DNA of 62,531 bases from Cellulosimicrobium cellulans (GTDB lineage: Bacteria; Actinomycetota; Actinomycetes; Actinomycetales; Cellulomonadaceae), in assembly GCF_006539945.1 (NCBI RefSeq), contig NZ_BJNZ01000027.1:1-62531 (forward strand), given 5' to 3'. The first letter of the stretch is position 1, and each line of letters begins with the position of its first letter. Below, one piece after another: positions 7,674 to 50,508 of the stretch. The translations under genes and the position numbers were made by a program. A model generated the notes under the pieces. The model worked only from the letters and a program-made list of their open reading frames with translations. It did not search any database and was not told where the DNA came from.

Positions 7674-8072
7674 TCACAGGTAGCGGCAGACGTCCTCGGG
7701 GGAGCATGTGGCCGGGTCGCCGGTGGTGGCGTGCTCGCGCAGGATGGCGATCGTGGTGCGTAGCTGCGCGAGCTCGGCGAGCTGCCGGTCGATGACCGCG
7801 AGGCGGGTGTCGAGCAGGTCGGTGACGTGCTGGCAGGGGGCCTGGCCCCGGTCTCGGATGGCCAGCACCTGGCCGATCTGGGCCAGGGTCAGCCCGGCGG
7901 CTTGGCCCCGGCGGATGAAGTGCAGCCGGTCGAGCACCTCGGGGCCGTAGTCCCGGTACCCCGCCGGGCTGCGGTCGGGGTCGGGGAGGAGTCCGACGTC
8001 CTCGTAGTACCGCAGGGTCTTAGCTGTCGTGCCCGACGCCTGAGCCACCTCACCGATCCGCATGCCACTCAT
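7674..8072 (-). CDS. merR: MerR family heavy-metal-responsive regulator
   Basis: 132 residues from ATG at 8072; a second ATG at 8063 is possible. The N-terminal winged helix (MRIGEVAQASGTTAKTLRYYE) is the MerR signature and a dimerisation helix follows. The metal-site cysteines are seen as APCQHV in the middle and CSPEDVC at the C-terminus, the three-Cys pattern expected for Hg(II). It is divergent from the mercuric reductase gene and separated from it by a classic MerR operator, so it should repress and, with Hg(II), activate merA. Confidence 0.88.
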   Translation of the reverse strand: MSGMRIGEVAQASGTTAKTLRYYEDVGLLPDPDRSPAGYRDYGPEVLDRLHFIRRGQAAGLTLAQIGQVLAIRDRGQAPCQHVTDLLDTRLAVIDRQLAELAQLRTTIAILREHATTGDPATCSPEDVCRYL

Positions 8073-8078
8073 TCTGCC

Positions 8079-8110
8079 TTGACCTTCCAGTGCACTGGAA
8101 GGTCGATCCT
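8079..8110 (+). promoter_or_regulatory. MerR operator and merA promoter
   Basis: A perfect 22-bp palindrome (8082-8103; half-site ACCTTCCAGTG) sits between a -35 TTGACC (8079-8084) and a weak -10 near 8105-8110. The 19-20 bp spacer is the over-long spacing that MerR-type activators correct by untwisting DNA. Confidence 0.88.
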
Positions 8111-8141
8111 GGTCCTGAGGCGCGGCAACAAGGGAGGACTT

Positions 8142-9590
8142 ATGACGGCAACGGACAAGGGCAGGTCGTATGACCTGGCAGTGATCGGGTCCGGTGGGGC
8201 GGCGTTCGCGGCCGCGATCCGCGCCACCACCCTGGGCAAGCGGGTGGTGATGATCGAGCGCGGCACCATCGGCGGTACCTGCGTGAACACCGGGTGTGTG
8301 CCCTCCAAAGCCCTGCTCGCGGCCGCCGAGGCCCGCCACGTCACACTCGACGCCGCCCGGTTCCCCGGTCTGCCACTCCCCGACGCCCCACCGGTCGACA
8401 TGCCCGCCATGGTCGCCGGCAAGGACAAGCTCGTCGGATCGCTGCGCAGCGAGAAGTACGCGGCCCTGGCCGCCGAGTACGGGTGGGCCCTCCACCCCGG
8501 CGAGGCCACCTTCGTCGGCACACCGACTGAGCCGGCACTCCGCGTGACCGGCCCGGACGGCACGGCGGAAACCGTCCGGGCCGCGCACCACCTCATCGCT
8601 ACCGGCTCCACGCCCTGGGCGCCGCCGGTCCCCGGCCTGCAGGAGGCCGGTTATCTGACCTCGACGACCGCGATGGAGCTGGACCACGTCCCGGAGTCGC
8701 TGCTGGTCATCGGCGGCGGCTACGTCGCCATGGAGCAGGCCCAGCTCTTCTCCCGCCTCGGTGCCCAGGTCACCATGCTCGTCCGCTCACGGCTGGCCTC
8801 CCACGAGGAACCCGAGGCCGCCACCGCCCTGGAAGAAATCCTCGCCGACGAAGGCATCGAGATCATCCGCGGCGCGGTGCCCACCGCGGTGCGCCGCGAC
8901 CCGGCCACCGGCGAGGTCACGGTCACCGCCACCACCGCCGACGGCTCACACGAGCTCCGCGCGGCCGAGCTCCTCGTTGCCACCGGCCGCCGCCCGGTCA
9001 CCGGCACGCTCGGCCTCGACACCATCGGCGTGCGCGCCGGCAAGCGCGGCGAGGTCATCATCGACAGCCACCTGCGCACCACGAACCCGCGGATCTGGGC
9101 CGCGGGTGACGTCACCGCCCACCCGCAGTTCGTGTACGTCGCCGCGGCCCACGGCGCCCTGGTCGCCGACAACGCCCTCACCGGAGCCGGCCGGGAGGTC
9201 GACTACCGCCACCTGCCCCGGGTCGTGTTCACCAGCCCCGCCCTGGCCTCCGTCGGAATGACCGACCAGCAGGCCCGCACTGCCGGGATCCGCTGCGACA
9301 GCCGCATCCTGCCCCTGGCGCACGTCCCGCGCGCCATCGTCAACCGTGACACCCGCGGGCTCATCAAGATCGTCACCGACGCCGACACCGGCCGCATCAT
9401 CGGCATCACCGCCCTCGCCCAGGACGCCGGTGACCTCGCCGCCGCCGGCGTCTACATCCTCGAGGCCGGCATGACCACCGACCAGGTCGCCAACCTCTGG
9501 AGCCCCTACCTGACCATGGCCGAAGGCCTCAAACTCACCGCCCAAACCTTCACCACCGACATCACCAAACTCTCCTGCTGCGCAGCATGA
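8142..9590 (+). CDS. merA: Mercuric reductase
   Basis: 482 residues. A flavoprotein disulfide reductase that uses NADPH to reduce Hg(II) to volatile Hg(0) in the cytosol. FAD motif GSGGAAFAAA lies near residues 16-25, the redox pair C47/C52 in GGTCVNTGCVPSK, an NAD(P) motif IGGGYVAMEQ mid-protein, and a C-terminal Cys-Cys pair (KLSCCAA) that delivers Hg(II). The N-terminal NmerA (HMA) domain of many MerA proteins is absent. ATG 8142 has AGGGAGGA at 8131-8138. No merT/merP transporter and no merB lie next to it, so uptake must be passive or encoded elsewhere. Confidence 0.95.
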   Translation: MTATDKGRSYDLAVIGSGGAAFAAAIRATTLGKRVVMIERGTIGGTCVNTGCVPSKALLAAAEARHVTLDAARFPGLPLPDAPPVDMPAMVAGKDKLVGSLRSEKYAALAAEYGWALHPGEATFVGTPTEPALRVTGPDGTAETVRAAHHLIATGSTPWAPPVPGLQEAGYLTSTTAMELDHVPESLLVIGGGYVAMEQAQLFSRLGAQVTMLVRSRLASHEEPEAATALEEILADEGIEIIRGAVPTAVRRDPATGEVTVTATTADGSHELRAAELLVATGRRPVTGTLGLDTIGVRAGKRGEVIIDSHLRTTNPRIWAAGDVTAHPQFVYVAAAHGALVADNALTGAGREVDYRHLPRVVFTSPALASVGMTDQQARTAGIRCDSRILPLAHVPRAIVNRDTRGLIKIVTDADTGRIIGITALAQDAGDLAAAGVYILEAGMTTDQVANLWSPYLTMAEGLKLTAQTFTTDITKLSCCAA

Positions 9591-16233: not shown

Positions 16234-18552
16234 TCAGACGCCGGCGAGCTGCCCGGCTGGCGCGGTTGACGTGGTGGTGGACGGGTTCGGGCTGGTTGCC
16301 CGGCTGGTGAACGACCGCAGGCGCAGGCTGTTGCCCACGACGAAGACGCTGGAGAACGCCATCGCCGCGCCGGCGAGCATGGGGTTGAGCAGGCCCAGGG
16401 CGGCCAGCGGGATCGCGGCGACGTTGTAGGCGAACGCCCAGAACAGGTTCACCTTGATCGTGCCGAGGGTGCGTCGGGACAGGCGGATCGCGTCGGCCGC
16501 GGAGCGCAGGTCGCCCCGAACCAGGGTGATGTCAGCGGCCTCGATCGCGACGTCGGTGCCGGTGCCCATGGCCAGGCCGAGGTCGGCCTGGGCCAGGGCA
16601 GCGGCGTCGTTGACGCCGTCACCGACCATCGCGACGACCTTGCCCTCGGCCTGCAGCCGGGCAACGACGTCGACCTTGTCCCGGGGCATGACCTCGGCGA
16701 TCACCTGCTCGATGCCGACCTCGGCCGCGATCTGGTGCGCGACCGTGGCGTTGTCGCCGGTGAGCAGGACCGGGGTCAGGCCGAGCCCGCGGAGCTGGGC
16801 GATGGCCTGGGCGCTCGTGGGCTTCACGGCGTCGGCGATGACGAGCACACCGCGGGCGCGCCCGTCCCAGCCGACGACGACAGCCGTGCGGCCCTGCTCC
16901 TCGGCGCGGGCCTTGGCATCGGCGAGGTCGTGGGGGAGGTGCTGTGCCCACTCGGCCAGGAGCGACTCGCGCCCGACGAGCACGGCGTGCCCGTCGACGA
17001 CGCCCTGCACGCCCTTGCCCTCGACGTTGGTGAAGTCCTCGGGCACGGGCAGCGTGCCGACCTCCTGGGCAGCGCCGCGGGCGATCGCCCGGGCGACGGG
17101 GTGCTCGGACGCGTCCTCGAGCGCGCCCGCGAGGCGAAGGAGCTCGGTGCGGTCGACCCCGGTGCCGGTGACGACGTCGGTCAGGGTCATCACGCCCGTG
17201 GTCACGGTGCCGGTCTTGTCGAGCACGACCGTGTCCACGGCGCGCGTGGACTCCAGCACCTCGGGGCCCTTGATGAGGACGCCCATCTGCGCGCCCCTGC
17301 CCGTGCCGACCAGCAGCGCGGTCGGGGTGGCCAGGCCGAGCGCGCACGGGCACGCGATGATGAGCACCGCGACGGCGGCGGTGAACGCGGCGGAGGCTGG
17401 CGCGCCGGCGCCGAGCCAGGCGCCCAGAGTGCCGATGGCGATCGCGATGGCGATCGGGACGAAGATCGCGGAGACGCGGTCGGCGAGGCGCTGGACGCGG
17501 GCCTTGCCGGACTGGGCGTCCTCGACGAGCCGCGCCATCTGCGCGAGCTGGGTGTCGCCGCCGACGCGCGTCGCGCGCACGACCAGCCGCCCGCCCGCGT
17601 TGACGGTCGCGCCCGTGACGGCGTCGCCCTCGCCCACCTCGACGGGCACGGACTCGCCCGTGAGCATGGACGCGTCGACGGCGGAGGTGCCGGTGACGAT
17701 GGTGCCGTCGGTGGCGATCTTCTCGCCGGGGCGCACGACGAACTCATCGCCCACGGCGAGCTCGGAGATCGGGATGCGGGTCTCGGCGCCGTCGCGCAGC
17801 ACGGCCACGTCCTTGGCGCCGAGCTCGAGCAGCGCCCGCAGGGCGGCGCCGGCCTGCCGCTTGGACCGCTTCTCGAAGTAGCGGCCGGCGAGGATGAAGG
17901 TCGTGACGCCGGCCGCGACCTCCAGGTAGATGTTCCCGGCGCCGTCGGTGGGCGCGACGGACAGCGTGAACGGGTGGGTCATGCCCGGCTCGCCCGCGGT
18001 GCCGAGGAACAGCGCGTACAGGGACCACAGGAACGCGGCGCTGGTCCCCACCGAGATGAGGGTGTCCATCGTCGCGGCGCCGTGGCGCAGGTTGGTCCAC
18101 GCGGCGCGGTGGAACGGCCAGGCCGCCCACACCACGACGGGCGCGGCGAGTGCGAGGCTGGCCCACTGCCAGTACGTGAACTGCAGCGCGGGGACCATCG
18201 CCATCGCGATGACGGGCACCGAGAGCACCACGGCACCGATCAGACGGTGGCGCAGCGCGGTGAGCTCGGGGTCGGTGTCGTCCGCCTCGGCCGTCGCCGG
18301 GGCGTCGGGGTCCTCGACGCGCGGGAGCGCGGCGGTGTAGCCGGTCTTCTCGACCTCGGCGATGAGCGTGGCGGCGTCGACGCCCTCCGGGACGGTGACC
18401 TTCGCCTTCTCCGTCGCGTAGTTCACGGTGGCGGTGACGCCGTCGAGCCGGTTGAGCTTCTTCTCGATCCGCATGGCGCACGAGGCGCAGGTCATCCCGC
18501 CGATCTCGAGCTCGACGAACGTCCCCGGTGGCGGGGCGGCCGGTGCCGTCAT
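16234..18552 (-). CDS. copA: Copper-exporting P1B-type ATPase
   Basis: 772 residues. One N-terminal HMA domain ([17 protein letters not shown]22 and C25), eight expected membrane helices and the metal-site motif CPC ([12 protein letters not shown], near residue 401) mark a Cu(I) exporter. The phosphorylation motif DKTGT is near residue 446, SEHPVARA carries the HP motif and GDGVND closes the ATP domain. Exports Cu(I) across the inner membrane. Third gene of the minus-strand copper operon; a small GC-rich hairpin lies in the 49-bp gap before it. Confidence 0.95.
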
Positions 18553-24047: not shown

Positions 24048-24212
24048 CGCCGAACCCTGTCACCTCTTGGAGCACACCACCAACACCCATGACAGGGACG
24101 GGGGAACCACTCAACCGGGCACCACGGTGCCCTCGGGGTGAAGCCGCACCGCACCCAGCGGTGAGGCCGGGTCACTCTCCGACCCGAACCCGACAGCTCA
24201 CCCCGCAGGCGC
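24048..24212 (+). ncRNA. Probable ydaO/yuaA cyclic-di-AMP riboswitch
   Basis: The 300-bp gap before the NlpC/P60 gene contains the conserved pieces of this riboswitch in order: GCCGAACCCTGTCACC (24048-24063), GACGGGGGAACCAC (24097-24110), GGGGTGAAGCC (24135-24145), and CCCGAACCCGACAGCTCACC (24183-24202) then GCAGGCG. In actinobacteria this element sits before cell-wall hydrolase genes and turns them off when c-di-AMP is high (established). Distance to the ATG (24226) is right. Recognition was by eye, not by covariance model. Confidence 0.75.
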
Positions 24213-24225
24213 GAAGGAGAACACC

Positions 24226-25035
24226 ATGACCGCACGAAAGCCGGGACGCCACCGCGCGTCCCACCGACCCATCACACCCCTGACCCCGATCGCCCGCGCA
24301 GCCCAGGAAGGAGCAGTCAGCACCGCCCGCAAGGGCGCCCTGCTCGCGGCGGGATCTGGCCTGCTCGTGTCGGTGTTCGCGGCACCGGCCAGCGCCGCAC
24401 CGAGCACCGACCAGCCCAAGGCCGTCTCCAGCGTCGACCTGAGCGCCCTGACCGAGCCGGCCCGTCAGGCGCTCAGCGCCGCCCCAGCGGTCACCGTCTC
24501 AGCCGACGCCGCGTTCGTGATCGAACAGGCACCGGTCGCGGTCACCCCCGCCCCCGAACCCGAGCCGGAACCGGAGCCCGAGCCCGAGCCCGAGCCGGAA
24601 CGCCAGGATCGCTCGTCCCGCAGCCAGGAGCGCGCTCCCGCCCCGCAAGAGCAGGCGGGCACCGCTGCGGCCCAGGCCCCGGTCGAAGCTCCGCCGTCCG
24701 CGGCGGGCTCGAGCGTGGTCGGCGTCGCGATGCAGTACCTCGGCGTGCCCTACCAGTGGGGCGGCACCACACCGGCAGGGTTCGACTGCTCCGGGTTCAC
24801 GTCCTACGTGTACGCCCAGGTCGGCATCAACCTGCCCCGCACGTCCTCCGAGCAGCGGTATGCCGGCACCGTCATCTCCCGCGACCAGGCACAGCCCGGT
24901 GACTTGATCTGGAGCCCGGGCCACATCGGCATCTACGCCGGGGACAACATGCAGATCGAGGCGCCCTCACCCGGCAAGACCGTCCGGTACGGGCAGATCT
25001 GGCAGGCCAACCCGACCTACATCCGCGTCGGTTGA
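24226..25035 (+). CDS. NlpC/P60 (C40) peptidoglycan hydrolase
   Basis: 269 residues. A signal-peptide-like segment (LLAAGSGLLVSVFAAPASAA) precedes a Pro-Glu repeat linker (PEPEPEP..., about 30 residues). The C-terminal 100 residues hold the NlpC/P60 catalytic set: Cys in FDCSGFTSYV, His in GHIGIYAG, and QPGDLI. Secreted endopeptidase of cell-wall stem peptides, RpfA/RipA-like in architecture. ATG 24226 has AAGGAG. A riboswitch precedes and a strong terminator follows, so it is a separate unit inside the copper region. Confidence 0.92.
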   Translation: MTARKPGRHRASHRPITPLTPIARAAQEGAVSTARKGALLAAGSGLLVSVFAAPASAAPSTDQPKAVSSVDLSALTEPARQALSAAPAVTVSADAAFVIEQAPVAVTPAPEPEPEPEPEPEPEPERQDRSSRSQERAPAPQEQAGTAAAQAPVEAPPSAAGSSVVGVAMQYLGVPYQWGGTTPAGFDCSGFTSYVYAQVGINLPRTSSEQRYAGTVISRDQAQPGDLIWSPGHIGIYAGDNMQIEAPSPGKTVRYGQIWQANPTYIRVG

Positions 25036-25147: not shown

Positions 25148-27457
25148 ATGAAGCCTCACGGTCACGACGAGCACGGACCGAGCACGGCCCATCATCATCA
25201 CCACCCCGCGCCAGCCTCCGTCGACGCCGGCGGCGACGACCGGGCTCCATCGCGCGCTGCACCCGACCCAGGCCACCACGGCGAGGTACATCCTGACCAC
25301 GCCGATCGGCACGGCCAGGGCCACGACCATGAGCAGCAGCACCGCGGACACGGCGGGCACCCTGAGCCCGCCGGCCACGAGGGCCACGAGGGCCACGAGG
25401 GCCACGAGGGCCACGAGGGCCACGGTGGGCATGGCGGGCACGGTGATCACGTCGGGCAGTTCCGCCGGCTGTTCTGGATCATGCTCGTCCTGGCGGTCCC
25501 GGTAGTCGCGACGTCGAGCATGTTCGCGATGATCCTCGGGTACGAGCTGCCCGACGTGCCAGGTCTTGGTCTGGTCTCTCCGGTGCTCGGCACGGTGATG
25601 TACGTGTGGGGCGGGCGCCCGTTCCTGACAGGCGCGGTCTCGGAGATCCGTTCGCGCAAGCCCGGGATGATGCTGCTCATCGGCCTGGCGATCACCGTCG
25701 CGTTCGTCGCCTCGTGGGGCGCGAGCCTGGGCCTGCTCGACCACCAGCTCGACTTCTGGTGGGAGCTCGCGCTGCTGATCGTGATCATGCTGCTCGGCCA
25801 TTGGATCGAGATGCGGTCCCTGGCGCAGACGACCTCCGCCCTGGACTCCCTGGCCGCGTTGCTGCCGGACGAGGCGGAGCGGGTCGAGGGTGATGACGTC
25901 GTCACCGTGGCGCCTGGCGACCTGCGCGTGGGAGACGTGGTCGTGGTTCGCCCCGGTGGCCGGGTCCCGGCCGACGGCAAGGTCGTGGACGGCGCCGCGA
26001 GCATGGACGAGTCGATGATCACGGGGGAGTCGCGCACCGTGCGTCGCAGCAACGGTGACCTGGTCGTGGCCGGCACCGTCGCGACCGACTCGGGCGTGCG
26101 TGTGCAGGTCACCGCGGTCGGGCAGGACACGGCCCTGGCCGGTATCCAGCGCCTGGTTACCGAGGCGCAGAACTCCAGCTCACGCGCCCAGCGTCTGGCC
26201 GACACCGCGGCCGGGTGGCTGTTCTGGTTCGCGCTCGGCGCCGCGGTGCTCACCGCTGCGGCGTGGACCGTCCTCGGGATGCCGGACGACGCCGTGATCC
26301 GCACGGTGACCGTCCTCGTCATCGCCTGCCCTCACGCCCTGGGCCTGGCGATCCCTCTCGTGGTCTCCATCGCGACCGAGCGCGCAGCGCGCGGCGGCGT
26401 CCTGATCAAGGACCGGCTCGCGCTGGAGAGCATGCGCACCGTCGACGCGGTGCTGTTCGACAAGACCGGCACTCTGACCAAGGGCGAGCCCACGGTGACC
26501 GAGGTCGAAGCGACCGGCGACCACGACCAGGACACCGTTCTCGCGCTGGCGGCAGCCGCGGAGTCCGACTCCGAGCACCCGCTCGCCCGAGCCATCGTCC
26601 GCGCCGCCCGCGACAGGGGCCTGCCCGTGGCGTCCGCTCAAGACTTCCAGTCGTCCCCGGCGGTGGGCGTACGCGCGAGCGTGTCGGGTCGCAGCGTGGA
26701 GGTCGGTGGGCCCAATCTTCTGCACGAGCGGTCCGCCCAGGAGCTGGCGGTCGTCGACCGGTGGCGCGAGTCGGGAGCGATCATCTTGCACGTCCTCATC
26801 GACGGGCAGGTCGCGGGAGCTCTGCGCCTGGCCGACGAGATCCGCACCGAGTCTCGCGAGGCGGTCGCCGCGCTGAACCAGCGTGGCGTGCAGGTCGTGA
26901 TGATCACCGGCGACGCCGAGGCCGTGGCGGCGTCTGTCGCGCACGAGCTGGGCATCGAGCGGTACTTCGCTGGCGTGCGGCCCGAGGACAAGTCCGCCAA
27001 GGTCCAGCAGCTGCAGCGCGAAGGCCGCAAGGTCGCGATGGTCGGAGACGGCGTGAACGACGCCCCGGCGCTGGCCCAGGCGGATGTCGGCATCGCGATC
27101 GGTGCTGGCACCGACGTCGCGATCGCCTCGGCCGGAGTCATCCTCGCTAGCGACGATCCCCGGTCCGTGCTGTCGGTCATCGAGCTGTCGCGGGCGAGCT
27201 ACCGCAAGATGAAGCAGAACCTGTGGTGGGCAGCGGGGTACAACCTGATCTCCGTCCCGCTCGCCGCCGGGGTGCTCGCGCCCATCGGCTTCGTCATGCC
27301 GATGTCTGTCGGTGCGCTGCTCATGTCCGCATCGACCGTGGTCGTCGCGCTCAACGCCCAGCTCCTGCGACGTCTGGACCTGCGCCCCGAGATGAGCGCC
27401 CGGGCCATCCTCGGGCGGCCCGCCGTCGATGCCGAACGCCAGGACGTTCACGCGTGA
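25148..27457 (+). CDS. copB: CopB-type P1B ATPase with His-rich N-terminus
   Basis: 769 residues. The N-terminal 100 residues are His/Gly/Glu-rich with a GHE tandem repeat instead of an HMA domain. The metal-site motif is CPH (IACPHALGLAIP, near residue 393), which defines the CopB (P1B-3) class thought to move Cu(II) or Cu(I)/Ag(I). DKTGT near 437, SEHPLARA and GDGVND complete the ATPase. ATG 25148 has GGAGAGGAAGG. Its stop overlaps the GTG of the next gene. Confidence 0.92.
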   Translation: MKPHGHDEHGPSTAHHHHHPAPASVDAGGDDRAPSRAAPDPGHHGEVHPDHADRHGQGHDHEQQHRGHGGHPEPAGHEGHEGHEGHEGHEGHGGHGGHGDHVGQFRRLFWIMLVLAVPVVATSSMFAMILGYELPDVPGLGLVSPVLGTVMYVWGGRPFLTGAVSEIRSRKPGMMLLIGLAITVAFVASWGASLGLLDHQLDFWWELALLIVIMLLGHWIEMRSLAQTTSALDSLAALLPDEAERVEGDDVVTVAPGDLRVGDVVVVRPGGRVPADGKVVDGAASMDESMITGESRTVRRSNGDLVVAGTVATDSGVRVQVTAVGQDTALAGIQRLVTEAQNSSSRAQRLADTAAGWLFWFALGAAVLTAAAWTVLGMPDDAVIRTVTVLVIACPHALGLAIPLVVSIATERAARGGVLIKDRLALESMRTVDAVLFDKTGTLTKGEPTVTEVEATGDHDQDTVLALAAAAESDSEHPLARAIVRAARDRGLPVASAQDFQSSPAVGVRASVSGRSVEVGGPNLLHERSAQELAVVDRWRESGAIILHVLIDGQVAGALRLADEIRTESREAVAALNQRGVQVVMITGDAEAVAASVAHELGIERYFAGVRPEDKSAKVQQLQREGRKVAMVGDGVNDAPALAQADVGIAIGAGTDVAIASAGVILASDDPRSVLSVIELSRASYRKMKQNLWWAAGYNLISVPLAAGVLAPIGFVMPMSVGALLMSASTVVVALNAQLLRRLDLRPEMSARAILGRPAVDAERQDVHA
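25375..25428 (+). repeat. 9-bp tandem repeat in the copB His-rich region
   Basis: Five exact copies of CCACGAGGG (25375-25419) and a sixth, altered one (25420-25428) code the Gly-His-Glu repeat. Such an array can change copy number by slippage and so change the number of metal-binding His residues. Confidence 0.85.
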
Positions 27458-34835: not shown

Positions 34836-36392
34836 TCAGTCGCGTTCGATGCCGGCGCCGCTGTCACGCCCCGTCCCTCGATCGGACGGCCGTCGCGTCG
34901 CGTGCGCCGGGAGCTGACCGCTGCTCGCGCTGCTTTGGACCGCCCGCTCGAGCTGCGGGACGGCGGCGGCCACCGCAGCAAGTGCGCGGTGGGTCCCGGC
35001 CGCTGCCTGAACCTGACCGCGCAACTCCTGAGCGTGAGCGATGGCGCGTGCCGCGCGCTCGGCCTGTCGCAGCACGGCGATCCACCCGACCTTCGCGTCA
35101 CGGCCCGTGGCACGCGCGACCAGACGCGAGGCGTAGGCGGCGTTGAGAGACGCTCGCTCGCTCTTCGAACGGTCCTGGTGCGCCGAGTCGTGTGCGGGCG
35201 GCTGGGCTGCTCGAGAGAGGGCGTCCGACGCCTCCTGCAGCGCACCCGGTCGGTCCTTCTCAAGGGCCAGCGAGGCTCGCGCGAACACGCCAGCGACGTC
35301 GAGCGCGGCGACCCGCTGGTCTGCCTCTCCGAGGCGGCCACCCATGCCATGCAGGGCCCGTGCGGCGTCCGCCGGCGGCGTGCTCATCGTGACCTTCGCA
35401 GCGACCGTGGCATCGCGCCAGCGCTCGGTCCACGCCGAGGTGAGGCGTGGATCGCCAGCGACGTCGGCGCCCCAGCGCGACCGGAGCTGGCCCAGGGCGA
35501 GGGTTCGGTCAAGGCGTCCCGCACCGAACCACACGGGACGATCCCGGCGCCCTTCGGCGACGTTGGGAGCAAGCGCGACCGAGTAGCCCACGACGCGGTC
35601 GCGGCCGCCCTCGGCGTACCTCGGCCGGACCAGAACGCGTGCGTCACGCAGCGCGTCCAGGAACTCGCGCTCGCCGCTCGCGCCGGCCGCCGCGGCACGC
35701 ACGCGGCGACGCAACTCGTCGCGAGCGGGCAGAGAGACCGACGCCCGCTCCGCGCGGTTCAGCTCGCCGGGCTTGGCACCCGCAAGAGCACCGCGGCCGC
35801 TCTCACGCGACTCCAGGACGACGAGCCCGTGCCGCTTCTCCAGCACGTTCGCGAGCCGCTGCGCACGCGGCATGTCGTTGTGCACGCGCGCCTTCGTACC
35901 GTCCTCTCGGACCAGGTTCACCACGACGTGCACATGGTCATTGCCCGCGCTCGAGAGCCCGTGTCGAACCGCAACCCAGCGGCACCCCGCTCCCCCGTCG
36001 TCCGAACCGGTGAACCCCATGCCCTCGACGAACTCGCTCGCGATCCGACCCCACTGCTCATCGCTCAACTGCCCCTCGGACGACTTGAGCGACAGCGAGC
36101 AGTGCCACACGTGTGCGTCTCGCTCGCCGACCTTGATCATCCGCTGCTCGGACTCGCTCCACTCCTTCACAGGCGCGGTCACGCGAGTGCCAAAGACGCG
36201 CCGCGGCTGGTCGAGCTCGTTCGCGATGTCGAGCGCGTCATCGGTGCTGAGCTCTCGGGACCCAACGGCCGCCACCACGACCTCGTGGCCCGCGACGACG
36301 TGCGGGTTGGTGTGCTCGTTGTGCCGTCCGTCGCCGGCGAGGTAGACCATGACCCCGGCGACCCGATCGCCGCGCGTGATGTTCGGCATCAT
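34836..36392 (-). CDS. mobA: Relaxase (MobA/VirD2-like)
   Basis: 518 residues. The N-terminal 200 residues form a relaxase domain with the metal-binding His motif NDHVHVVVNLVREDG (H153, H155) and a helper segment HVWHCSLSL. A Tyr near the N-terminus (VMVYLAG) is a candidate nick nucleophile. The C-terminal half is helical and Arg/Ala-rich. It nicks at oriT and leads the strand into the type IV channel. ATG at 36392 overlaps the mobC stop, so both are made together. Confidence 0.88.
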   Translation of the reverse strand: MMPNITRGDRVAGVMVYLAGDGRHNEHTNPHVVAGHEVVVAAVGSRELSTDDALDIANELDQPRRVFGTRVTAPVKEWSESEQRMIKVGERDAHVWHCSLSLKSSEGQLSDEQWGRIASEFVEGMGFTGSDDGGAGCRWVAVRHGLSSAGNDHVHVVVNLVREDGTKARVHNDMPRAQRLANVLEKRHGLVVLESRESGRGALAGAKPGELNRAERASVSLPARDELRRRVRAAAAGASGEREFLDALRDARVLVRPRYAEGGRDRVVGYSVALAPNVAEGRRDRPVWFGAGRLDRTLALGQLRSRWGADVAGDPRLTSAWTERWRDATVAAKVTMSTPPADAARALHGMGGRLGEADQRVAALDVAGVFARASLALEKDRPGALQEASDALSRAAQPPAHDSAHQDRSKSERASLNAAYASRLVARATGRDAKVGWIAVLRQAERAARAIAHAQELRGQVQAAAGTHRALAAVAAAVPQLERAVQSSASSGQLPAHATRRPSDRGTGRDSGAGIERD

Positions 36393-36790
36393 GAGCGCAG
36401 CCCTTCCGCCGCGCGCAACGCGCTCCCGACCCGCTCACTCACCGTCTGGACAGCGCGCAGAGACTCCATGAGCTCGGCCTGAACCTCCCCCGTCGCGTTC
36501 GTCGCGCGAGCGATCTGGTTGAGGTTGTTCGACACCGCGGCGAGCAGCCGGCGCGCGTGGAAGAGCTCCGTCAGGTGGGTCGCTCGATCGGTCGCGGTCT
36601 CGCCCTGATCTGCGAGCGCAGACTCCACCAGAAGGCGCGGGATCGTGACACGGGCGGCCGCCGCTCGCTGAAGTAGCAGCGCCTCCTCCTCGGGTGTCAC
36701 GCCGACGCGGTGGTAGTGGCGTCGGCCACCCGGAACGTTGGCGCGTCGCTGACGCTGACGATCGCGCGCTCGCGGCGCTGCCTCGGTCAT
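36389..36790 (-). CDS. mobC: Relaxosome protein MobC
   Basis: 133 residues from ATG 36790. Contains a ribbon-helix-helix-like N-terminal part and the MobC motif LLAAVSNNLNQIARATN. MobC assists the relaxase at oriT by opening DNA around the nick. The upstream 237 bp hold inverted repeats that fit oriT. Confidence 0.88.
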   Translation of the reverse strand: MTEAAPRARDRQRQRRANVPGGRRHYHRVGVTPEEEALLLQRAAAARVTIPRLLVESALADQGETATDRATHLTELFHARRLLAAVSNNLNQIARATNATGEVQAELMESLRAVQTVSERVGSALRAAEGLRS

Positions 36791-36887: not shown

Positions 36888-36945
36888 CACTTACGACACG
36901 TAAGTGTATAGCTTGCTCCGCCGGAGGCTCGTCGCAAGCCCGTCA
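36888..36945. other. Candidate origin of transfer (oriT)
   Basis: Directly before mobC lies CACTTAC-GACAC-GTAAGTG (36888-36906), a perfect 7-bp inverted repeat. GCTTGC (36911-36916) and GCAAGC (36934-36939) then flank the small palindrome CTCCG-C-CGGAG. A repeat next to a CGTAAGTG-like sequence is reminiscent of MOBQ/MOBP nick regions. The exact nick cannot be set from sequence alone. Confidence 0.6.
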
Positions 36946-40338: not shown

Positions 40339-40590
40339 TCAGGCCTCCTGGCGGGCTGAGAGGGCGGTGATCTGGTCGGGCCGAAATCCGCTCCATGACT
40401 CCTCGCCGGCGACGACGACCGGGGCCTGGAGGTATCCGAGAGCGCGCACCTGCTCGAGCGCGTCGACGTCGGTGCTGATGTCCACCACGGTGTACTCGAT
40501 CCCCTTTCTGTCGAGCGCGCGGTACGTCGCGTCGCACTGGACGCATGCCGGCTTGCTGTACACGGTGACCTTGACCTGCTGGCTGGTCAT
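40339..40590 (-). CDS. nrdH: NrdH-like glutaredoxin
   Basis: 83 residues. Thioredoxin fold with the redox motif CVQC near residue 16 and the QAPVVV cis-Pro segment; the end WSGFRPDQI matches NrdH redoxins that give electrons to class Ib ribonucleotide reductase. ATG 40590 has GGGGGAGG. No nrdEF genes are present here, so it would serve the host enzyme. It is preceded by a long folded leader. Confidence 0.9.
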   Translation of the reverse strand: MTSQQVKVTVYSKPACVQCDATYRALDRKGIEYTVVDISTDVDALEQVRALGYLQAPVVVAGEESWSGFRPDQITALSARQEA

Positions 40591-40648
40591 GATGCCTCCC
40601 CCACGTCGTTTTTCGGACCGTCCCTGCAAGCGGAGCGTTTGGCCGCAA

Positions 40649-40811
40649 GCCGTCCCAGGACGCACCCGCAGGGCGTGAGCGCAGCGAGCGAGTCGGGGCG
40701 CCCGGGTGGCCGGGAAGTTCTCGGCGGGCTCAGCGACGAAGGAGCGCAGCCGAGAAGTTGGCGGGCGGTCGGGCCGGAGCGCAGCGGAGCCGACTTGCGC
40801 CCTGGGACGGC
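40649..40811 (-). other. Nested-hairpin leader element, diverged copy (before nrdH)
   Basis: Long fold with three matched stems: GCCGTCCCAGG (40649-40659) with CCTGGGACGGC (40801-40811); AGTCGG (40691) with CCGACT (40790); TTCTCGGC (40718) with GCCGAGAA (40749). GAGCGCAGC-type motifs fill the arms and CGAAAAACG (minus strand) lies before the gene, as in the three copies at 46-50 kb. Confidence 0.6.
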
Positions 40812-40920
40812 CGGCCACACTCGGAGCCAGGGACGGACCGAAACACCAAGCGCTTGTGCAGCCGCGGCCCGCAGGGCCGCGTCATGTCGTGTACGGCGCT
40901 CCGTCGCCGGGCACCGTGGT

Positions 40921-44845: not shown

Positions 44846-44910
44846 GGGGGCCCTCCTTTGCGTTGGTGTCAGGTGGCCGGTGGTCTCCGGCCGTTGTGTG
44901 CCCTTCCAAC

Positions 44911-44950
44911 AACTCAAGTATACATCATTGCTCGCGCGATGTATACCTCA
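44911..44950 (-). promoter_or_regulatory. Promoter overlapped by an inverted repeat
   Basis: GTATACATC (44918-44926) and GATGTATAC (44938-44946) form a perfect 9-bp inverted repeat, with CAACAACTCAA/CTCAGTTG symmetry outside. TATACT on the minus strand (44917-44922) is a good -10. AT-rich in a very GC-rich area, so it probably binds a repressor. Confidence 0.7.
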
Positions 44951-44996
44951 GTTGAGGGGCGGGCCGGGCGCGGTTCACGCCCGGCCCGCTGGTGGC

Positions 44997-45405: not shown

Positions 45406-45813
45406 TCAGTCCTCGCCGGGGAGGCTGATGGTCACGACCGGCGCGGCGGTGTCGCCGGGGCCGACGTGGAGCACCAGGTCGAGGTCCTGGGCCTCGACCC
45501 GGTCCGGGGCGTTGGGGACTCGGGCCACGGTGAACCGGGAGCGGCCCGCGCGGGCCGCGATCGTGGCGAGCCAGAGCACGTCCCACAGTCGCCCGGTCTC
45601 GTCCTGCCCGGCCTCGTACTCGGGGTTCCACGCGACGGCCTCGGCGTGGGCCGCCTGGGTGAGCGCGACGGGCCAGCGGAACCCTGCTTCCTGGGCCAGC
45701 GGCCCGGCGTCGACCAGCACGCCGTCCGCCAGGGCCTGGGCGCGGGTGTACGTGTGGATCGGCGGGCCGAACACACCTTCGGTGGTGGGCCGAGCGTCAA
45801 CGTCGGCGCTCAT
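45406..45813 (-). CDS. DUF6573-like protein
   Basis: 135 residues from ATG 45813, overlapping the previous stop (ATGA). Motifs FGPPIHTYTRAQALADGVLVD and FRWPVALT match small plasmid proteins labelled DUF6573. The second half is beta-rich. Function unknown; common beside DUF3560-type genes. Confidence 0.75.
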   Translation of the reverse strand: MSADVDARPTTEGVFGPPIHTYTRAQALADGVLVDAGPLAQEAGFRWPVALTQAAHAEAVAWNPEYEAGQDETGRLWDVLWLATIAARAGRSRFTVARVPNAPDRVEAQDLDLVLHVGPGDTAAPVVTISLPGED

Positions 45814-46064
45814 GCGTAGTTGCGGGGGTTGGGCTGGGCCGCGCCGGCGGTCCAGGCGGCGTGCACGGCGTCGGCGTACGCGTCGGCCGCCGCGAGGGTG
45901 GGGTGCTGGCTGTGGCGCGAGGACGGCGAGAACCACCCGTCCACGACCATGACGCCGGCGCCGATCCCCCACGGGGTCCCGTCCGTGACGATCGTCCAGC
46001 GCTCGTGGTCGTGGTAGCAGGTGACGTCCGGGCGGACGGTTGGCTGTTCGGTGGTGGTGGCCAT
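45810..46064 (-). CDS. Small hypothetical protein under leader copy 1
   Basis: 84 residues from ATG 46064 (AGGAAGG before it). Starts MATTTEQPTVRPDV, similar to the first residues of the ParB-like gene at 48054 because the repeated leader runs into the coding region. Core: TCYHDHERWTIVTDGTPWGIGAGVMVVDGWF. No named family. Confidence 0.65.
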   Translation of the reverse strand: MATTTEQPTVRPDVTCYHDHERWTIVTDGTPWGIGAGVMVVDGWFSPSSRHSQHPTLAAADAYADAVHAAWTAGAAQPNPRNYA

Positions 46065-46450
46065 GGTGACCCTTCCTGCGCAGGTGGTGGGTGGCCGGGG
46101 TCCCGACCGTTTTTCGCCCCCTCCTGGCGCCGTAATCACCGCCCGCATAAGCGGCCCGGAGTGCAACCCGCGGTCCGGCCCGACGGCGGGGCTCGTCGCC
46201 CGGGAGAAGCGACGAAGGAGCGCCGGGCGGCGAGTTTCGACGGCGGGCCGGCGACGCAGTCGAGCGGGTTGCGCGCAGGGTCGCGCGGGCGATGATGGAG
46301 AGCCAGGAGGGGAAGAAAACCGCGCGCAGCGCGGACAACGCGCCGCGCAGCGGCACCGCTCAGGTCCCGGCCGCAGGCCGGGAGAACCACACACCCGCCC
46401 AGCTCGACGACCACAGCCGGCCCCACCGCTCCCCCACCGGCCACCGGCCG
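46065..46450 (-). repeat. Nested-hairpin leader, copy 1
   Basis: 386 bp upstream of the 46064 start. Same as copies 2 and 3 except for the stem region about 46155-46272. There the paired arms differ from the other copies but still match each other: CAACCCGC/GCGGGTTG, CCGGCCCG/CGGGCCGG and CTCGTCGCCCGG/CCGGGCGGCGAG (one T-G pair). Confidence 0.85.
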
Positions 46451-46510
46451 ACCCACCTGCCCACCGGCAACTCGTCTCGCTGCCCGTCGACGCCGACGCC
46501 GGCCCGAGCT

Positions 46511-46641
46511 GGAGGCGGGGGTCCGGGGGGCGGCAGCTCCCCGGTGCCCGTACCGGCCCTCGATGGGCCGGTACGGGCAGCACCACGCGCGACGGCGCGC
46601 GGTCCGCGGGGTCTCCCCCACGGGCCGCGCGCCGGGCCGGG
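46511..46641 (-). terminator. Terminator block of the ParB-like gene (repeat copy a)
   Basis: Contains a perfect 14-bp stem GCCCGTACCGGCCC (46546-46559 with 46565-46578) and a second GC-rich arm pair. Almost the same block lies after the DUF4192 gene at 48737-48864. Confidence 0.8.
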
Positions 46642-48054
46642 CTACTTCTTGGGCGCCTTGCCCCGGGCGATCTTCTCCACGTCGCTCAGGGTGTAGCCCC
46701 AGGACTCCAGCGCGGTCAGGTACTCGCGCAGGCTGCCCTGGTTCCGCCAGGACTGGACTCCCGTCCCGGTCTCGCACGCTGCCAGGCAGAGGACGAGCGC
46801 GATGTGCTGCGCCCGACCCGCCGTGGCCTTCTCGGCGGCCTGCGCGATGCCCTGGCTGCGTGCCCGGTACGCGCTCGCGCCGGGCTTGATGCCGAGCCAC
46901 TGCGCGGCCAGTTCGTGGTCCTTGTCCGCCCCGTGACCGAGGGTGTGGGTGGCGGTCGCGATCTGGGCGGCGATGAACGCTGCCGCGCCCGTGGGGGCGG
47001 TCTTGCGCTGGGCGAACTCCGCGAGGAACTTCCGCCGGACGACCTCGGCTGACTTCCACGCCTTGTTGTTCTCGATCACCTGGCGGCGCTCGGCCTTCTC
47101 CGCCTCGCTCATCGGCCCGGAGCGCTGGGTGCTGCCGGTGCTGTACCGGTCGCCGTGGCCGTGCTTGCGCCAGTTCGTGCAGACGTAGACGACCTCGACC
47201 CGCTGCCACTGCGACAAGATGTAGGCCGCGTGGCCGGGGCACGCTGCGTGCTTCTCAACGGTGAGATCGGTGCCGTTGGCGTCGTCAGCGGCGGGCTTGA
47301 GGCTGTCCAGACGCTTGATCTTGGCGTCGTTGTAGTCGGGCCGGGGAACCTCGGTCACGTTCTGCGCGGCCAGCGTCTCGCGTGCGGCGGCGACCTCGGC
47401 GGCGCGCTGGCGCTCGTCACGCGCCCGCTGGGCCTCGTGCGCGAAGCGTCCCGGGTCCTTGATCGCGACGGCCGTCAAGGTCTTGACGGTCTCGGTGTCG
47501 TCCTCGAACTCCGCCAGGGCGGCGGCGACGTCGAGCGGCAGGTCGTACTTGGCCTGGACGGCAGCGGCGACCTTCGATCCTGCGACCGTGAGTGCGCTCG
47601 CCACGGCGCCCTTGTCGGTGCCGGTGCGCTTGGCGATCTGCCCAGCGCTCAGGCCGATGAGGGCCAGCTGCTGGAACGCGGCGGTGCGGTGGCTGTCGCG
47701 CATGTCCTTGCGGTGGTCGTTCTCGGCCAACTGCTCGACGATACGCCGGGCCTCGTCCTCGGTGCCGTCGATGATCTGCACCGGGATCGTCTCCCGGGCG
47801 GCTTCCACGGCAGCCAGCGTGCGGCGCTGACCTTCGAGGACGACCAGGGTGCCGTCCTCAGCGCGGCGGGCGCGCACGGCCTGCAGGACGCCGTGCTGCT
47901 TGATCGAGCCGACGAACTCGGGCGTGAGGTCGGCGTCGGCCCGCACGTTGACGCCGACGACGAGCGTGCGCGGGTCGACGTGGGCGAACTCGACGCTCTC
48001 GGGGGCCGTGCTCGCCTCGGCCTGCGTAGCGGGTGCTTCGGTGGTGGTGGTCAT
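46642..48054 (-). CDS. ParB/Spo0J-type nuclease-domain protein
   Basis: 470 residues from ATG 48054. N-terminal ParB domain with VVLEGQRRTLAAVEAA (the G-x-R-R CTP-binding motif) and LAENDHRKD, then a helix-turn-helix (LSAGQIAKRTGTDKGAVASAL). The C-terminal 250 residues include a Cys/His set (HAACPGH...YVCTNWRKHGHGD) not seen in standard ParB. It is far from parA (51 kb), so it may be a plasmid maintenance or anti-restriction protein rather than the partner of ParA. Confidence 0.82.
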   Translation of the reverse strand: MTTTTEAPATQAEASTAPESVEFAHVDPRTLVVGVNVRADADLTPEFVGSIKQHGVLQAVRARRAEDGTLVVLEGQRRTLAAVEAARETIPVQIIDGTEDEARRIVEQLAENDHRKDMRDSHRTAAFQQLALIGLSAGQIAKRTGTDKGAVASALTVAGSKVAAAVQAKYDLPLDVAAALAEFEDDTETVKTLTAVAIKDPGRFAHEAQRARDERQRAAEVAAARETLAAQNVTEVPRPDYNDAKIKRLDSLKPAADDANGTDLTVEKHAACPGHAAYILSQWQRVEVVYVCTNWRKHGHGDRYSTGSTQRSGPMSEAEKAERRQVIENNKAWKSAEVVRRKFLAEFAQRKTAPTGAAAFIAAQIATATHTLGHGADKDHELAAQWLGIKPGASAYRARSQGIAQAAEKATAGRAQHIALVLCLAACETGTGVQSWRNQGSLREYLTALESWGYTLSDVEKIARGKAPKK

Positions 48055-48440
48055 GGTGACCCTTCCTGCGCAGGTGGTGGGTGGCCGGGGTCCCGACCGT
48101 TTTTCGCCCCCTCCTGGCGCCGTAATCACCGCCCGCATAAGCGGCCCGGAGTGCAACCGACCGGTCCCGGAACGGCGGGGCTCGTCGGCCGAGCTCAGGG
48201 AGCGCAGCGACCGCAGGCCGACGAGTTTCGACGGGCCGGGACGCGCAGCGAGGTCGGTTGCGCGCAGGGTCGCGCGGGCGATGATGGAGAGCCAGGAGGG
48301 GAAGAAAACCGCGCGCAGCGCGGACAACGCGCCGCGCAGCGGCACCGCTCAGGTCCCGGCCGCAGGCCGGGAGAACCACACACCCGCCCAGCTCGACGAC
48401 CACAGCCGGCCCCACCGCTCCCCCACCGGCCACCGGCCGG
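48055..48440 (-). repeat. Nested-hairpin leader, copy 2
   Basis: 386 bp upstream of the ParB-like start; identical by eye to copy 3 over about 370 bp. Paired arms: CAACCGACC/GGTCGGTTG, GTCCCGG/CCGGGAC and CTCGTCGGCC/GGCCGACGAG, nested around a GGGAGCGCAGCGACCG apex. Confidence 0.9.
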
Positions 48441-48441
48441 A

Positions 48442-48606
48442 TCACGTGACTTCGACGAGGAGTTGGGCGAGGGCGACGACGACCCGGAGGGCGGTCAGGA
48501 GCAGCGTCCAGGCCCCGACCGTCCAGCGCTGACCGCGGCGCGACTCGGCTTCGGTCCGGTTCGTGCGAGGCGTGAGCTCGTCGTTCGTGTCGTGGCGGTT
48601 CGTCAT
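48442..48606 (-). CDS. Small single-pass membrane protein
   Basis: 54 residues from ATG 48606 with AGGGGAACACG as ribosome site. A polar N-terminus (MTNRHDTNDELTPRTNRTEAESRR) is followed by one hydrophobic helix (VGAWTLLLTALRVVVALAQLL). No family. Lies between the DUF4192 terminator and leader copy 2. Confidence 0.6.
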   Translation of the reverse strand: MTNRHDTNDELTPRTNRTEAESRRGQRWTVGAWTLLLTALRVVVALAQLLVEVT

Positions 48607-48736
48607 CGTGTTCCCCTGTCGTCGTCCTCGGCGCGCCGGTCGTCTGTGCCGCCACTTACTCGGGGAAGGTCTCCAGTTGCCCGGGTCTGTGACAGGCCCA
48701 GGGCGGCGAGCCTGGCTACATGGGTCGGTGACGACT

Positions 48737-48864
48737 GAGGCGGGGGCTCGGGGGGCGGCAGCTCCCCGGTGCCCGTACCGGCCCTCGATGGGCCGGTACG
48801 GGCAGCACCACGCGCGACGGCGCGCGGCCCGCAGGGTCTCCCCCACGGGCCGCACGCCGGGCGG
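48737..48864 (-). terminator. Terminator block of the DUF4192 gene (repeat copy b)
   Basis: 14-bp perfect stem (48771-48784 with 48790-48803) inside a block nearly identical to 46511-46641. The duplication of both leader and terminator shows that whole expression cassettes were copied with different genes between. Confidence 0.8.
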
Positions 48865-49896
48865 TTACTTCGTGTCGCGCTCGCGCACGACCCAACCGGG
48901 GGCCATCCCGAACTGGACGGCGGAGTTGAGCAGGAGCGCGAGCCTGTAGGTCTCATCGGCCTCGAGCGCGCGGGCGAGCGCGTCGGCCGCTGCCACGCCG
49001 TTGCCGTGCCACCAGGCGACCAGGCCCCACAGGGTCCACGCGGGGGCGCTGGTCGGCACGTGGGCCACGATCTGGGCGAGCAGGTCGCGCGCCGCGTCGG
49101 CAGCGTCGCCGGGCTGCACGCCGACCTTCTGGTCCGCGATCGCGGCGACGGCTCGCCCGGTGGCGTCGTCGGGGGCGTTCCCTGCGGCGGTCTGGGTCAC
49201 GGTGTCCGGGTCGATCCCGGGGACCATGGACAGCAGCGCGGCGTCACGCACCTTGGTGTGCGTGAGCATCTGCGCCAGTTCGCCGTAGATCCCCGGGCCG
49301 TCGACCAGTCCGGTGAGCGCGAGCCGCCACGTCGCCAGGGCGTGCGTGGTCTGCTCGTCGACGTTCTTCGCGGCGTGCTTCTCGGCGGCCCGGCGGGCCG
49401 TTGCCTGCGCCTCGGGCGACGCTTCGCCGGGCAGGAGCCCGGCGCGGTCGCTGGCGGGGGCGACGCCGAGGGCGACCATCTCGGCGGCGAGCACGCTCGT
49501 CGTCACGTCCGACAACGGGCGCACGACGGCGAGGGCGGCGTGCATGTCGACGTACCCGGCGGTGCTCACGTGGACGGCGTCGTGCACGTCGACGGCCTGG
49601 CCGTGCAGCGCTTCGGTCATGCTGGCGAGGGCGCGGTCGGCCTCCTCCCGGTCCTCGGTGTAGAGGGCGACGACGGCCGACGCGGCGCGGTCGTTCGCGA
49701 TGTGCACGGCGAGCATGTCGGCCGTCTCGGGCTTCACGTCGGACAGGTCGACGCGCGCGACCAGGCCGACCGTGCCGGTGTTGGACCGGCGCGCGACGAT
49801 CACCAGGCTCTCGGTCGGCGCGTAGCCGATGCGGTAGGGGATGTAGGCGAGCACGTCGACGACCGATCGTGCGCGGAGCGTGATCTGCTGAGCCAC
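48865..49896 (-). CDS. DUF4192 domain protein
   Basis: 343 residues from GTG 49896. Starts LRARSVVDVLAYIPYRIGYAPTESLVIVARR, the DUF4192 signature, and includes LLAQIVAHVPTSAPAWTLWGLVAWWHGNGVAAADALARALEADETYRLALLL, also typical. Common in actinobacterial chromosomes and plasmids; function unknown. Framed by leader copy 3 and a terminator block. Confidence 0.88.
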   Translation of the reverse strand: MAQQITLRARSVVDVLAYIPYRIGYAPTESLVIVARRSNTGTVGLVARVDLSDVKPETADMLAVHIANDRAASAVVALYTEDREEADRALASMTEALHGQAVDVHDAVHVSTAGYVDMHAALAVVRPLSDVTTSVLAAEMVALGVAPASDRAGLLPGEASPEAQATARRAAEKHAAKNVDEQTTHALATWRLALTGLVDGPGIYGELAQMLTHTKVRDAALLSMVPGIDPDTVTQTAAGNAPDDATGRAVAAIADQKVGVQPGDAADAARDLLAQIVAHVPTSAPAWTLWGLVAWWHGNGVAAADALARALEADETYRLALLLNSAVQFGMAPGWVVRERDTK

Positions 49897-49913
49897 GTAG
49901 GGCTCCTTCCCGC

Positions 49914-50282
49914 CAGGTGGTGGGTGGCCGGGGTCCCGACCGTTTTTCGCCCCCTCCTGGCGCCGTAATCACCGCCCGCATAAGCGGCCCGGAGTGCAAC
50001 CGACCGGTCCCGGAACGGCGGGGCTCGTCGGCCGAGCTCAGGGAGCGCAGCGACCGCAGGCCGACGAGTTTCGACGGGCCGGGACGCGCAGCGAGGTCGG
50101 TTGCGCGCAGGGTCGCGCGGGCGATGATGGAGAGCCAGGAGGGGAAGAAAACCGCGCGCAGCGCGGACAACGCGCCGCGCAGCGGCACCGCTCAGGTCCC
50201 GGCCGCAGGCCGGGAGAACCACACACCCGCCCAGCTCGACGACCACAGCCGGCCCCACCGCTCCCCCACCGGCCACCGGCCG
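49914..50282 (-). repeat. Nested-hairpin leader, copy 3
   Basis: 369 bp upstream of the DUF4192 gene, matching copy 2 base for base as far as I can read. Its last 17 bp before the gene differ, so the shared part ends just before the ribosome site. Confidence 0.9.
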
Positions 50283-50298
50283 GGCCCGGGAACGACAT

Positions 50299-50333
50299 CG
50301 CCCCGGTGTCCCTCGTCCGAGGGCACCGGGGCG
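50299..50333 (-). terminator. Hairpin after the 53-residue gene
   Basis: CGCCCCGGTG-TCCCTC with GAGGG-CACCGGGGCG forms a nearly perfect 15-bp stem and a short loop, 14 bp past the stop. Confidence 0.8.
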
Positions 50334-50346
50334 GTGAGCGGGGTTC

Positions 50347-50508
50347 CTAACGCTGGTCTCCTGCCGGAGTGTTGGGCCAGATCAGGTCTCCGACGACCGG
50401 CCTGCTGTGACCGTCCATCACGAGACTGAGCAGGCTCCCTTCGACGCCTGGGCTCGCGGGTGCGATCGTCACCTGGACCGTGTGGGGGTGTGTGAGGTCG
50501 ATGGTCAT
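50347..50508 (-). CDS. Small hypothetical protein (53 residues)
   Basis: ATG 50508 with AAGGAG seven to twelve bases upstream; ends at TAG 50347-50349 before a hairpin. Residues MTIDLTHPHTVQVTIAPASP...MDGHSRPVVGDLIWPN suggest a small beta-fold. No family recognised. It follows the parA partner gene with a 25-bp gap, so it is probably in the par operon. Confidence 0.6.
   Translation of the reverse strand: MTIDLTHPHTVQVTIAPASPGVEGSLLSLVMDGHSRPVVGDLIWPNTPAGDQR

Follow-up and report, generated by a model that had tools for sequence, protein, structure and literature searches.

Long hairpins on actinobacterial plasmids as candidate single-stranded-DNA promoters of leading-region genes

A few enterobacterial plasmids are known to have promoters that act in single-stranded DNA. 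The Frpo/ssi elements of F and ColIb-P9 are, in published passages on them, long hairpins in non-coding DNA that stand before leading-region genes in more than one copy per plasmid, and the element considered here is alike in each of these respects. It is present three times in the Cellulosimicrobium cellulans contig NZ_BJNZ01000027.1, an entire 62.5-kb contig (62,531 nucleotides) of a draft genome, which was analysed at its full length and is referred to as the window. Two other described systems are close to it. The EGeRS1 regions of pLS20-family Bacillus plasmids also consist of repeats with structure, 400-600 bp long, which immediately precede establishment genes, ardC among them, and have no ordinary promoter (passages of PMC8708921), whilst the single-strand replication origins (sso/ssi) of rolling-circle and conjugative elements are, according to excerpts of PMC4595007, likewise folded single strands recognised by the host RNA polymerase. 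Judging from its letters, its fold and its relatives, we consider it probable that the copies of this element serve the leading region of a conjugative or mobilisable plasmid as single-stranded-DNA promoters, Frpo-like in action.

The three copies, each of about 386 bp, lie upstream of three genes that are all on the minus strand (Table 1), as a first-pass annotation made from the letters alone had proposed. Over 380 nt, copies 2 and 3 have 99.5% identity, and a 300-nt core is 100% identical between them. Copy 1 shares 92% identity with copy 2, with the differences mostly in the inner stem, where both arms have changed together. Folding was run on copies 1 and 2, given that copy 3 is nearly identical to copy 2, and 0 of 100 dinucleotide shuffles reached the native fold. 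The z-scores for copy 2 were -3.8 as sense RNA, -4.3 as sense DNA, -7.2 as plus-strand RNA and -6.1 as plus-strand DNA, and that for copy 1 was -3.3 as sense RNA. The host genome contains no further copy beyond the three that could be found by DNA search or by a covariance model of the family. The first-pass annotation had spoken of four copies; a diverged hairpin recognised from its sequence before an nrdH-like gene is probably the fourth, but it is below the reach of the model, which misses it.

The element has relatives well beyond this contig. At E < 1e-13, 14 of 221 genomes of the same taxonomic family match, its own included, weaker matches being disregarded as likely chance, and one divergent query matches 8 of the 396 genomes of the order, again counting its own. 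An iterative profile, which keeps the better-scoring strand at each site, the element being palindromic, recovered 48 copies scoring above 50 bits; they are spread over 20 stretches, of which two belong to one plasmid, with between one and five copies per stretch. Among 72,556 plasmids, one divergent query found 73 records, 3 of them over at least 80% of its length and many via an apical motif, and a second found 66, of which 48 were over at least 80%; the plasmids matched include those of Clavibacter, Curtobacterium, Microbacterium, Glutamicibacter, Dietzia, Rathayibacter, Cnuibacter and others. The apical motif itself, GGGAGCGCAGCGACCGC (48198-48214 in the window, with relatives), is common to otherwise diverged copies and is behind many of the BLAST matches. 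A typed pattern was found in 12 stretches of an 84,980-species genome set, one of them a bin labelled Mycobacterium. A phage element was also considered and rejected, the exact pattern occurring in 0 stretches of viral_contigs in a search for the exact form only, divergent forms not having been sought.

A 130-bit cut and the removal of identical sequences reduced the 48 copies to 36 aligned ones, 29 of which were used for the covariance model, and across these 36 the fold is under selection. Pairing is kept in 90.3% of 1520 cells and both sides have changed in 22 of the 43 pairs, one stem pair being C-G in 23 copies and G-C in the other 13. Covariation scores 0.212, compared with 0.084 (sd 0.006) after shuffling, a control weakened by the relatedness of the 36 sequences, and none of 500 shuffles reaches the native value; when partners are slid, the score is at most 0.062. 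In the apical part the sequence is almost wholly replaced between copies whilst the fold is kept (alone, z <= -2 in 28 of 36), and the alignment of this part is unreliable owing to that turnover. Two distinct sequences in the window would by themselves be insufficient to prove covariation, and it is the 36 family members that provide the support. The earlier suggestion that compensating change reflects a selected fold has held up, and homologues do exist on actinobacterial plasmids, where the first-pass annotation had proposed to look for them.

Promoter-like letters are found on one arm only, on the strand opposite the genes. In the 3' arm, on the window plus strand, TTG is present in 35 of the 36 aligned copies and TTT in the other; three bases (N3) follow, and NANNNT then stands after a further 16 nt in 24 copies or 15 nt in 12, and at no other spacing between 10 and 23. 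Positions A2, A5 and T6 of this -10 hexamer are invariant (36/36). On the sense strand, counted from the matching TTG (33 copies) or TGG (3), NANNNT occurs at no spacing from 10 to 23 (0/36). We also examined a divergent set of 15 copies, made up of 11 records chosen for variety among the 60 rows listed, together with four weak copies of loci met earlier in the analysis; the profile or the model had already detected four of the 15, none of which had gone into building it. When the TTG closest to the aligned place is used, TTG-N3-N15/16-NANNNT is present in 15/15, the -10 starting with TA in 11, and stray NANNNT at spacings of 10, 11, 22 and 23 amounts to 1, 3, 1 and 1 of the 15. Four further weak copies, including the window hairpin before the nrdH-like gene, have the pattern too; the copies outside both sets are that hairpin, L049:17529, L066:5912 and L045:18034, and the L071 copy is identical to the L070 copy.

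The A at hexamer position 2 falls at -11, the base that is flipped out by RNA polymerase. In the 36 aligned copies it faces C (29), A (5) or G (2) and never T, and an internal loop comes after it; it is unpaired in 13 of 17 trimmed divergent folds. Between the same landmarks the template arm measures 19-21 nt as against 15-16 nt on the other arm, making it 3-6 nt longer, and consequently the gene strand of the double-stranded plasmid would be without a correctly spaced promoter. Upstream of all three window copies there is a terminator-like stem with a T run. It is these opposite-strand letters, the absence of T opposite the -11 A throughout the main family, the unequal arms and the leading-region position that together suggest a single-stranded-DNA promoter, and they leave the first-pass description, RNA leader or DNA cruciform, unsupported in the form in which it was given.

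This reading depends on which strand is transferred. Across 13 stretches the copies are on the mobC/relaxase strand in 35 of 35 cases (for G182, by a relaxase match only), with the type IV secretion system (T4SS) genes on the opposite strand. An inverted repeat resembling an origin of transfer (oriT) lies upstream of mobC and, as judged by eye, 11 of 11 stretches have GAGCAAGCT on its far side from mobC, and in 8 of them TATA comes next; the block is also present in L104 and partly in L105. The classical MOBP nic motif (ATCCTG/CAGGAT) was rejected, since either form is found upstream of mobC in only 2 of the 11 stretches and at no common place. In R388 the hairpin is 5' of the core (excerpts of PMC4652767), and relaxase genes are usually the last to enter the recipient (passages of PMC11541004). 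Given the strand of mobC and the relaxase, the layout around the oriT-like repeat, the side of the hairpin in R388 and the late entry of relaxase genes, the window plus strand is likely to be both the transferred strand (T-strand) and the template of the genes.

If so, the plus strand would enter the recipient from an oriT adjoining mobC, the nick being expected beside TATAGCTTG on the opposite strand to mobC, and every copy would fold into a long hairpin once that strand is single. The 3' arm would then serve as the non-template strand, carrying the -35 (TTG..), a spacer of 15-16 nt and the -10 (NANNNT), and the 5' arm as the template, with the mismatched -11 A and the internal loop past the -10 imitating a promoter that is already part-melted. 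Host RNA polymerase could start close to the loop (in copy 2, at about 48118), read the 5' arm and enter the gene some 65 nt on. Synthesis of the second strand would remove the hairpin and leave the gene strand with a spacing of 19-21 nt and no -10, the upstream terminator-like stem would stop readthrough, and the ParB-like, DUF4192, DUF6573 and other establishment genes would fall silent once the DNA is double-stranded. A start inside the hairpin comes close to an outcome that the first-pass annotation had named as telling against its own view, transcription beginning downstream of the hairpins.

A number of observations weigh against a single-stranded-DNA promoter transcribed from the plus strand. 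The match to consensus is weak (TTGCGC/GATGAT agrees at 7 of 12 positions) and the 15-nt spacing of 12 of the 36 copies is short. A consensus promoter scan of 46000-50400 found none, at a threshold that would also miss the promoter proposed here. Of the 17 trimmed divergent folds, four pair the -11 A with T, and four (L098, L099, L100 and L108) are predicted without the TTG in the stem of the 3' arm. Sense RNA would carry a U.G pair where the partner of the -11 base is C, and the terminator-like stem test is passed by only 16 of 36 family copies, compared with 18 of 360 shuffles. As regards the strand, conservation around the oriT-like repeat is not one-sided, a second conserved block (GTGGTCCCC..GGGGTCGCTGCGCTGG) lying about 60 nt off on the mobC side. 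The strand preference of the outer-stem wobble pairs is weak (29 G.T against 17 A.C, or 60 against 35 with apical pairs included), and so is the lean of the fold z-scores, the T-strand folding better in 10 of 18 cases with DNA parameters and 13 of 18 with RNA parameters. Finally, the similar repeats of pLS20 plasmids are reported to have the transferred strand as the non-template strand (passages of PMC8708921).

That last comparison raises the best-surviving alternative, which we nevertheless regard as unlikely, namely that the element is a regulatory RNA leader or readthrough barrier of the EGeRS1 kind, with the fold acting in RNA made from upstream promoters and blocking expression until a signal is received. 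EGeRS1 shares the placement directly before establishment genes, the several copies and the very stable folds, and EGeRS1-B stops readthrough (both from passages of PMC8708921); sense RNA of the present element folds well too, and the terminator-like stems precede all three window copies. An RNA barrier leaves unexplained, however, why TTG-15/16-NANNNT should be kept on the opposite strand in 36/36 and 15/15 copies against 0/36 in the sense control, and why the main-family -11 A never faces T, and the wobble pairs lean, weakly, to the other strand. The likeness to EGeRS1, which we draw by description, also has its limits, because no promoter was reported in the EGeRS1 fold and its transferred strand is non-template, whereas here the putative T-strand would be the template and the promoter pattern is invariant. 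The pLS20 authors considered a single-strand promoter highly unlikely on exactly these two grounds, the non-template nature of the nicked strand and the lack of a visible promoter (passages of PMC8708921), and both objections come out opposite here, the point about the strand by inference.

Less probable still is an sso/ssi origin proper, in which the hairpin loads RNA polymerase or primase for priming of the second strand and stands before genes only secondarily. An origin of this kind could use the same promoter anatomy, both uses are named in the title of the Frpo paper, and the elements cited as having a folded sso that is read as a promoter include F (excerpts of PMC4595007 and PMC9849209). 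One origin would do for a plasmid, and yet there are one to five copies per stretch, often several per plasmid and each beside a gene start, which also sets the element apart from the described sso/ssi; in the annotated plasmids examined, the matched stretch is followed, at most about 110 bases on, by a start codon on the same strand. A priming role may exist alongside the promoter role. It is very improbable that we are dealing with an ordinary double-stranded plus-strand promoter making antisense RNA, for although TTG-N16-GATGAT exists in double-stranded DNA too and points away from the gene, such a promoter needs no conserved opposite arm, no compensating changes and no T-avoiding base at -11. 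A cruciform alone was rejected as it leaves the one-sided promoter letters unexplained, and a riboswitch or other known RNA because no Rfam match falls at the copies, RF00379 at 24068-24226 being the sole match in the window at E up to 1; the first-pass annotation had likewise known of no named riboswitch of this shape.

Table 1. Positions of the hairpins, their predicted parts and the neighbouring genes in the window
Feature	Position	Strand	Remarks
Hairpin copy 1	46065..46450	-	upstream of 84-aa open reading frame (ORF; 45813-46064), then DUF6573 gene (45406-45813)
Copy 1, predicted promoter	-35 46269-46274; -10 46291-46296	+	TTGCGC; GATGAT; from sequence
Hairpin copy 2	48055..48440	-	upstream of ParB-like gene 46642-48054
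Copy 2, outer stem arms	about 48101-48118 and 48291-48308
Copy 2, predicted -35	48258..48263	+	TTGCGC; TT in 36/36, G in 35/36 aligned copies
Copy 2, predicted -10	48280..48285	+	GATGAT; A2, A5, T6 in 36/36; A 48281 faces 48129
Copy 2, template-arm bulge, 4 nt	48137..48140	+
Copy 2, terminator-like stem and T run	48309..48338	-	just upstream of copy 2
Copies 1 and 3, terminator-like stems	46320-46349 and 50152-50181	-	equivalents of the copy 2 stem
Hairpin copy 3	49905..50283	-	upstream of DUF4192 gene 48865-49896
Copy 3, predicted promoter	-35 50101-50106; -10 50123-50128	+	from sequence
Diverged fourth hairpin (probable)	40606..40845 (about)	-	before nrdH-like gene, start near 40590
Fourth hairpin, predicted promoter	40795-40800 and 40816-40821	+	TTGCGC, N15, CACACT
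DUF6573 gene	45406..45813	-	putative leading region
ParB_N-domain gene, 470 aa	46642..48054	-	putative leading region; downstream of copy 2
DUF4192 gene	48865..49896	-	putative leading region; downstream of copy 3
MobA/VirD2-type relaxase gene	34836..36392	-	mobC match 36404-36739 upstream of relaxase
oriT-like inverted repeat	36888..36906	.	upstream of mobC; + strand away from mobC continues TATAGCTTGCTC, conserved in relatives

Besides the genes listed in Table 1, the contig encodes a DnaG-like primase, a glutaredoxin, Fic and ParA and, by comparison with relatives, T4SS-like genes. Annotated relatives have this layout in common: the T4SS genes are on one strand, and the hairpin genes, followed by mobC and the relaxase, are on the other. 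The hairpin genes of these relatives encode DUF4192, ParB-like, DUF6573, ArdC-like and glutaredoxin proteins, with DUF3560, SSB and ParA nearby; the order inside the block varies, as does the position of Fic. In pTL2A (L073 22967-26812) the same hairpins and leading genes occur with a MobF relaxase, and no mobC is annotated in the two stretches viewed. A Paraoerskovia plasmid (L037, NZ_AP027730.1) has six hairpin places and at least two mobC-relaxase pairs, which gives the impression of a doubled backbone.

Within the window, two 126-bp repeats (46512-46637 and 48737-48862; 96% identical), each with two strong hairpins, come directly after the ParB-like gene and the DUF4192 gene and make the hairpin genes look like self-contained cassettes. 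A 27-nt AT-rich inverted repeat, 78% complementary with an 11-nt loop, is found at 44900-44964 in the putative leading region. The RF00379 match is a c-di-AMP (ydaO/yuaA) riboswitch on the plus strand (E 1.6e-9) before the ORF at 24226-25035 of this plasmid-like contig. A pyridine-nucleotide-disulphide oxidoreductase (7827-9590) and two P-type ATPases (16234-18552 and 25148-27457) likely represent metal-resistance cargo.

If the copies are indeed single-stranded-DNA promoters, actinobacterial plasmids would likewise express their anti-restriction (ArdC), SSB and partition-like genes ahead of second-strand synthesis, and the hairpins would be switches that turn these genes on only during single-strand entry into a new bacterium. 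The covariance model could then be used to flag, in dozens of plasmids, the leading region and genes that are candidates for counter-defence (DUF4192, DUF6573, DUF3560), and a -11 A that never faces T offers a natural experiment on the opening of DNA by RNA polymerase. A broader proposition, to which we give even chances, is that this is an independently evolved class of single-stranded-DNA promoter on plasmids of at least five Micrococcales families, in which the arms differ on purpose, one having a usable spacing, an unpaired -11 base and a pre-opened bubble and the other being 3-6 nt longer, such that the element could drive the gene only as single-stranded DNA and would be off, or facing away, when double-stranded.

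How far the element resembles the enterobacterial systems can be considered at the level of both sequence and arrangement. Frpo has been found by BLAST and also by consensus and structure (passages of PMC11541004); the words Actinobacteri- and Actinomycetota are absent from the main text of that paper, an extended figure of which shows a Streptomyces island. Among the matches listed for the open-licence literature, titles and the starts of abstracts contain no report of such promoters in Actinobacteria. Plasmid F carries a pair of 90% identical repeats, one before ssb and the other farther along the leading genes. We have taken the pair as Frpo2 and Frpo1 on the basis of excerpts of PMC9849209. 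Run against F 48000-67500 (19.5 kb, which holds the pair), the model gave no significant match (best E 0.53) and hence no sign of sequence homology to Frpo, and a 9-of-12 consensus search found nothing in the F repeats. The element also differs from Frpo in its GC-rich actinobacterial hosts and in its letters. The arrangement is alike. In published passages on Frpo/ssi the -35 and -10 are formed on folding, as they would be here by letters and spacing in 36/36 and 15/15 copies, albeit with a weak consensus match, and in both cases the hairpins precede leading genes on the strand of the transfer genes (here the mobC/relaxase strand, 35/35). The traM strand of F carries SopA/SopB, anti-restriction, SSB, a ParB-like gene and PsiB, and this gene content around the repeats resembles the ssb, ArdC, ParB-like, NrdH and ParA genes found beside mobC-relaxase here. 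Our comparison thus suggests an element that works like Frpo whilst being no member of it by sequence, and which seems to be a separate version of the E. coli plasmid trick, common in actinobacteria.

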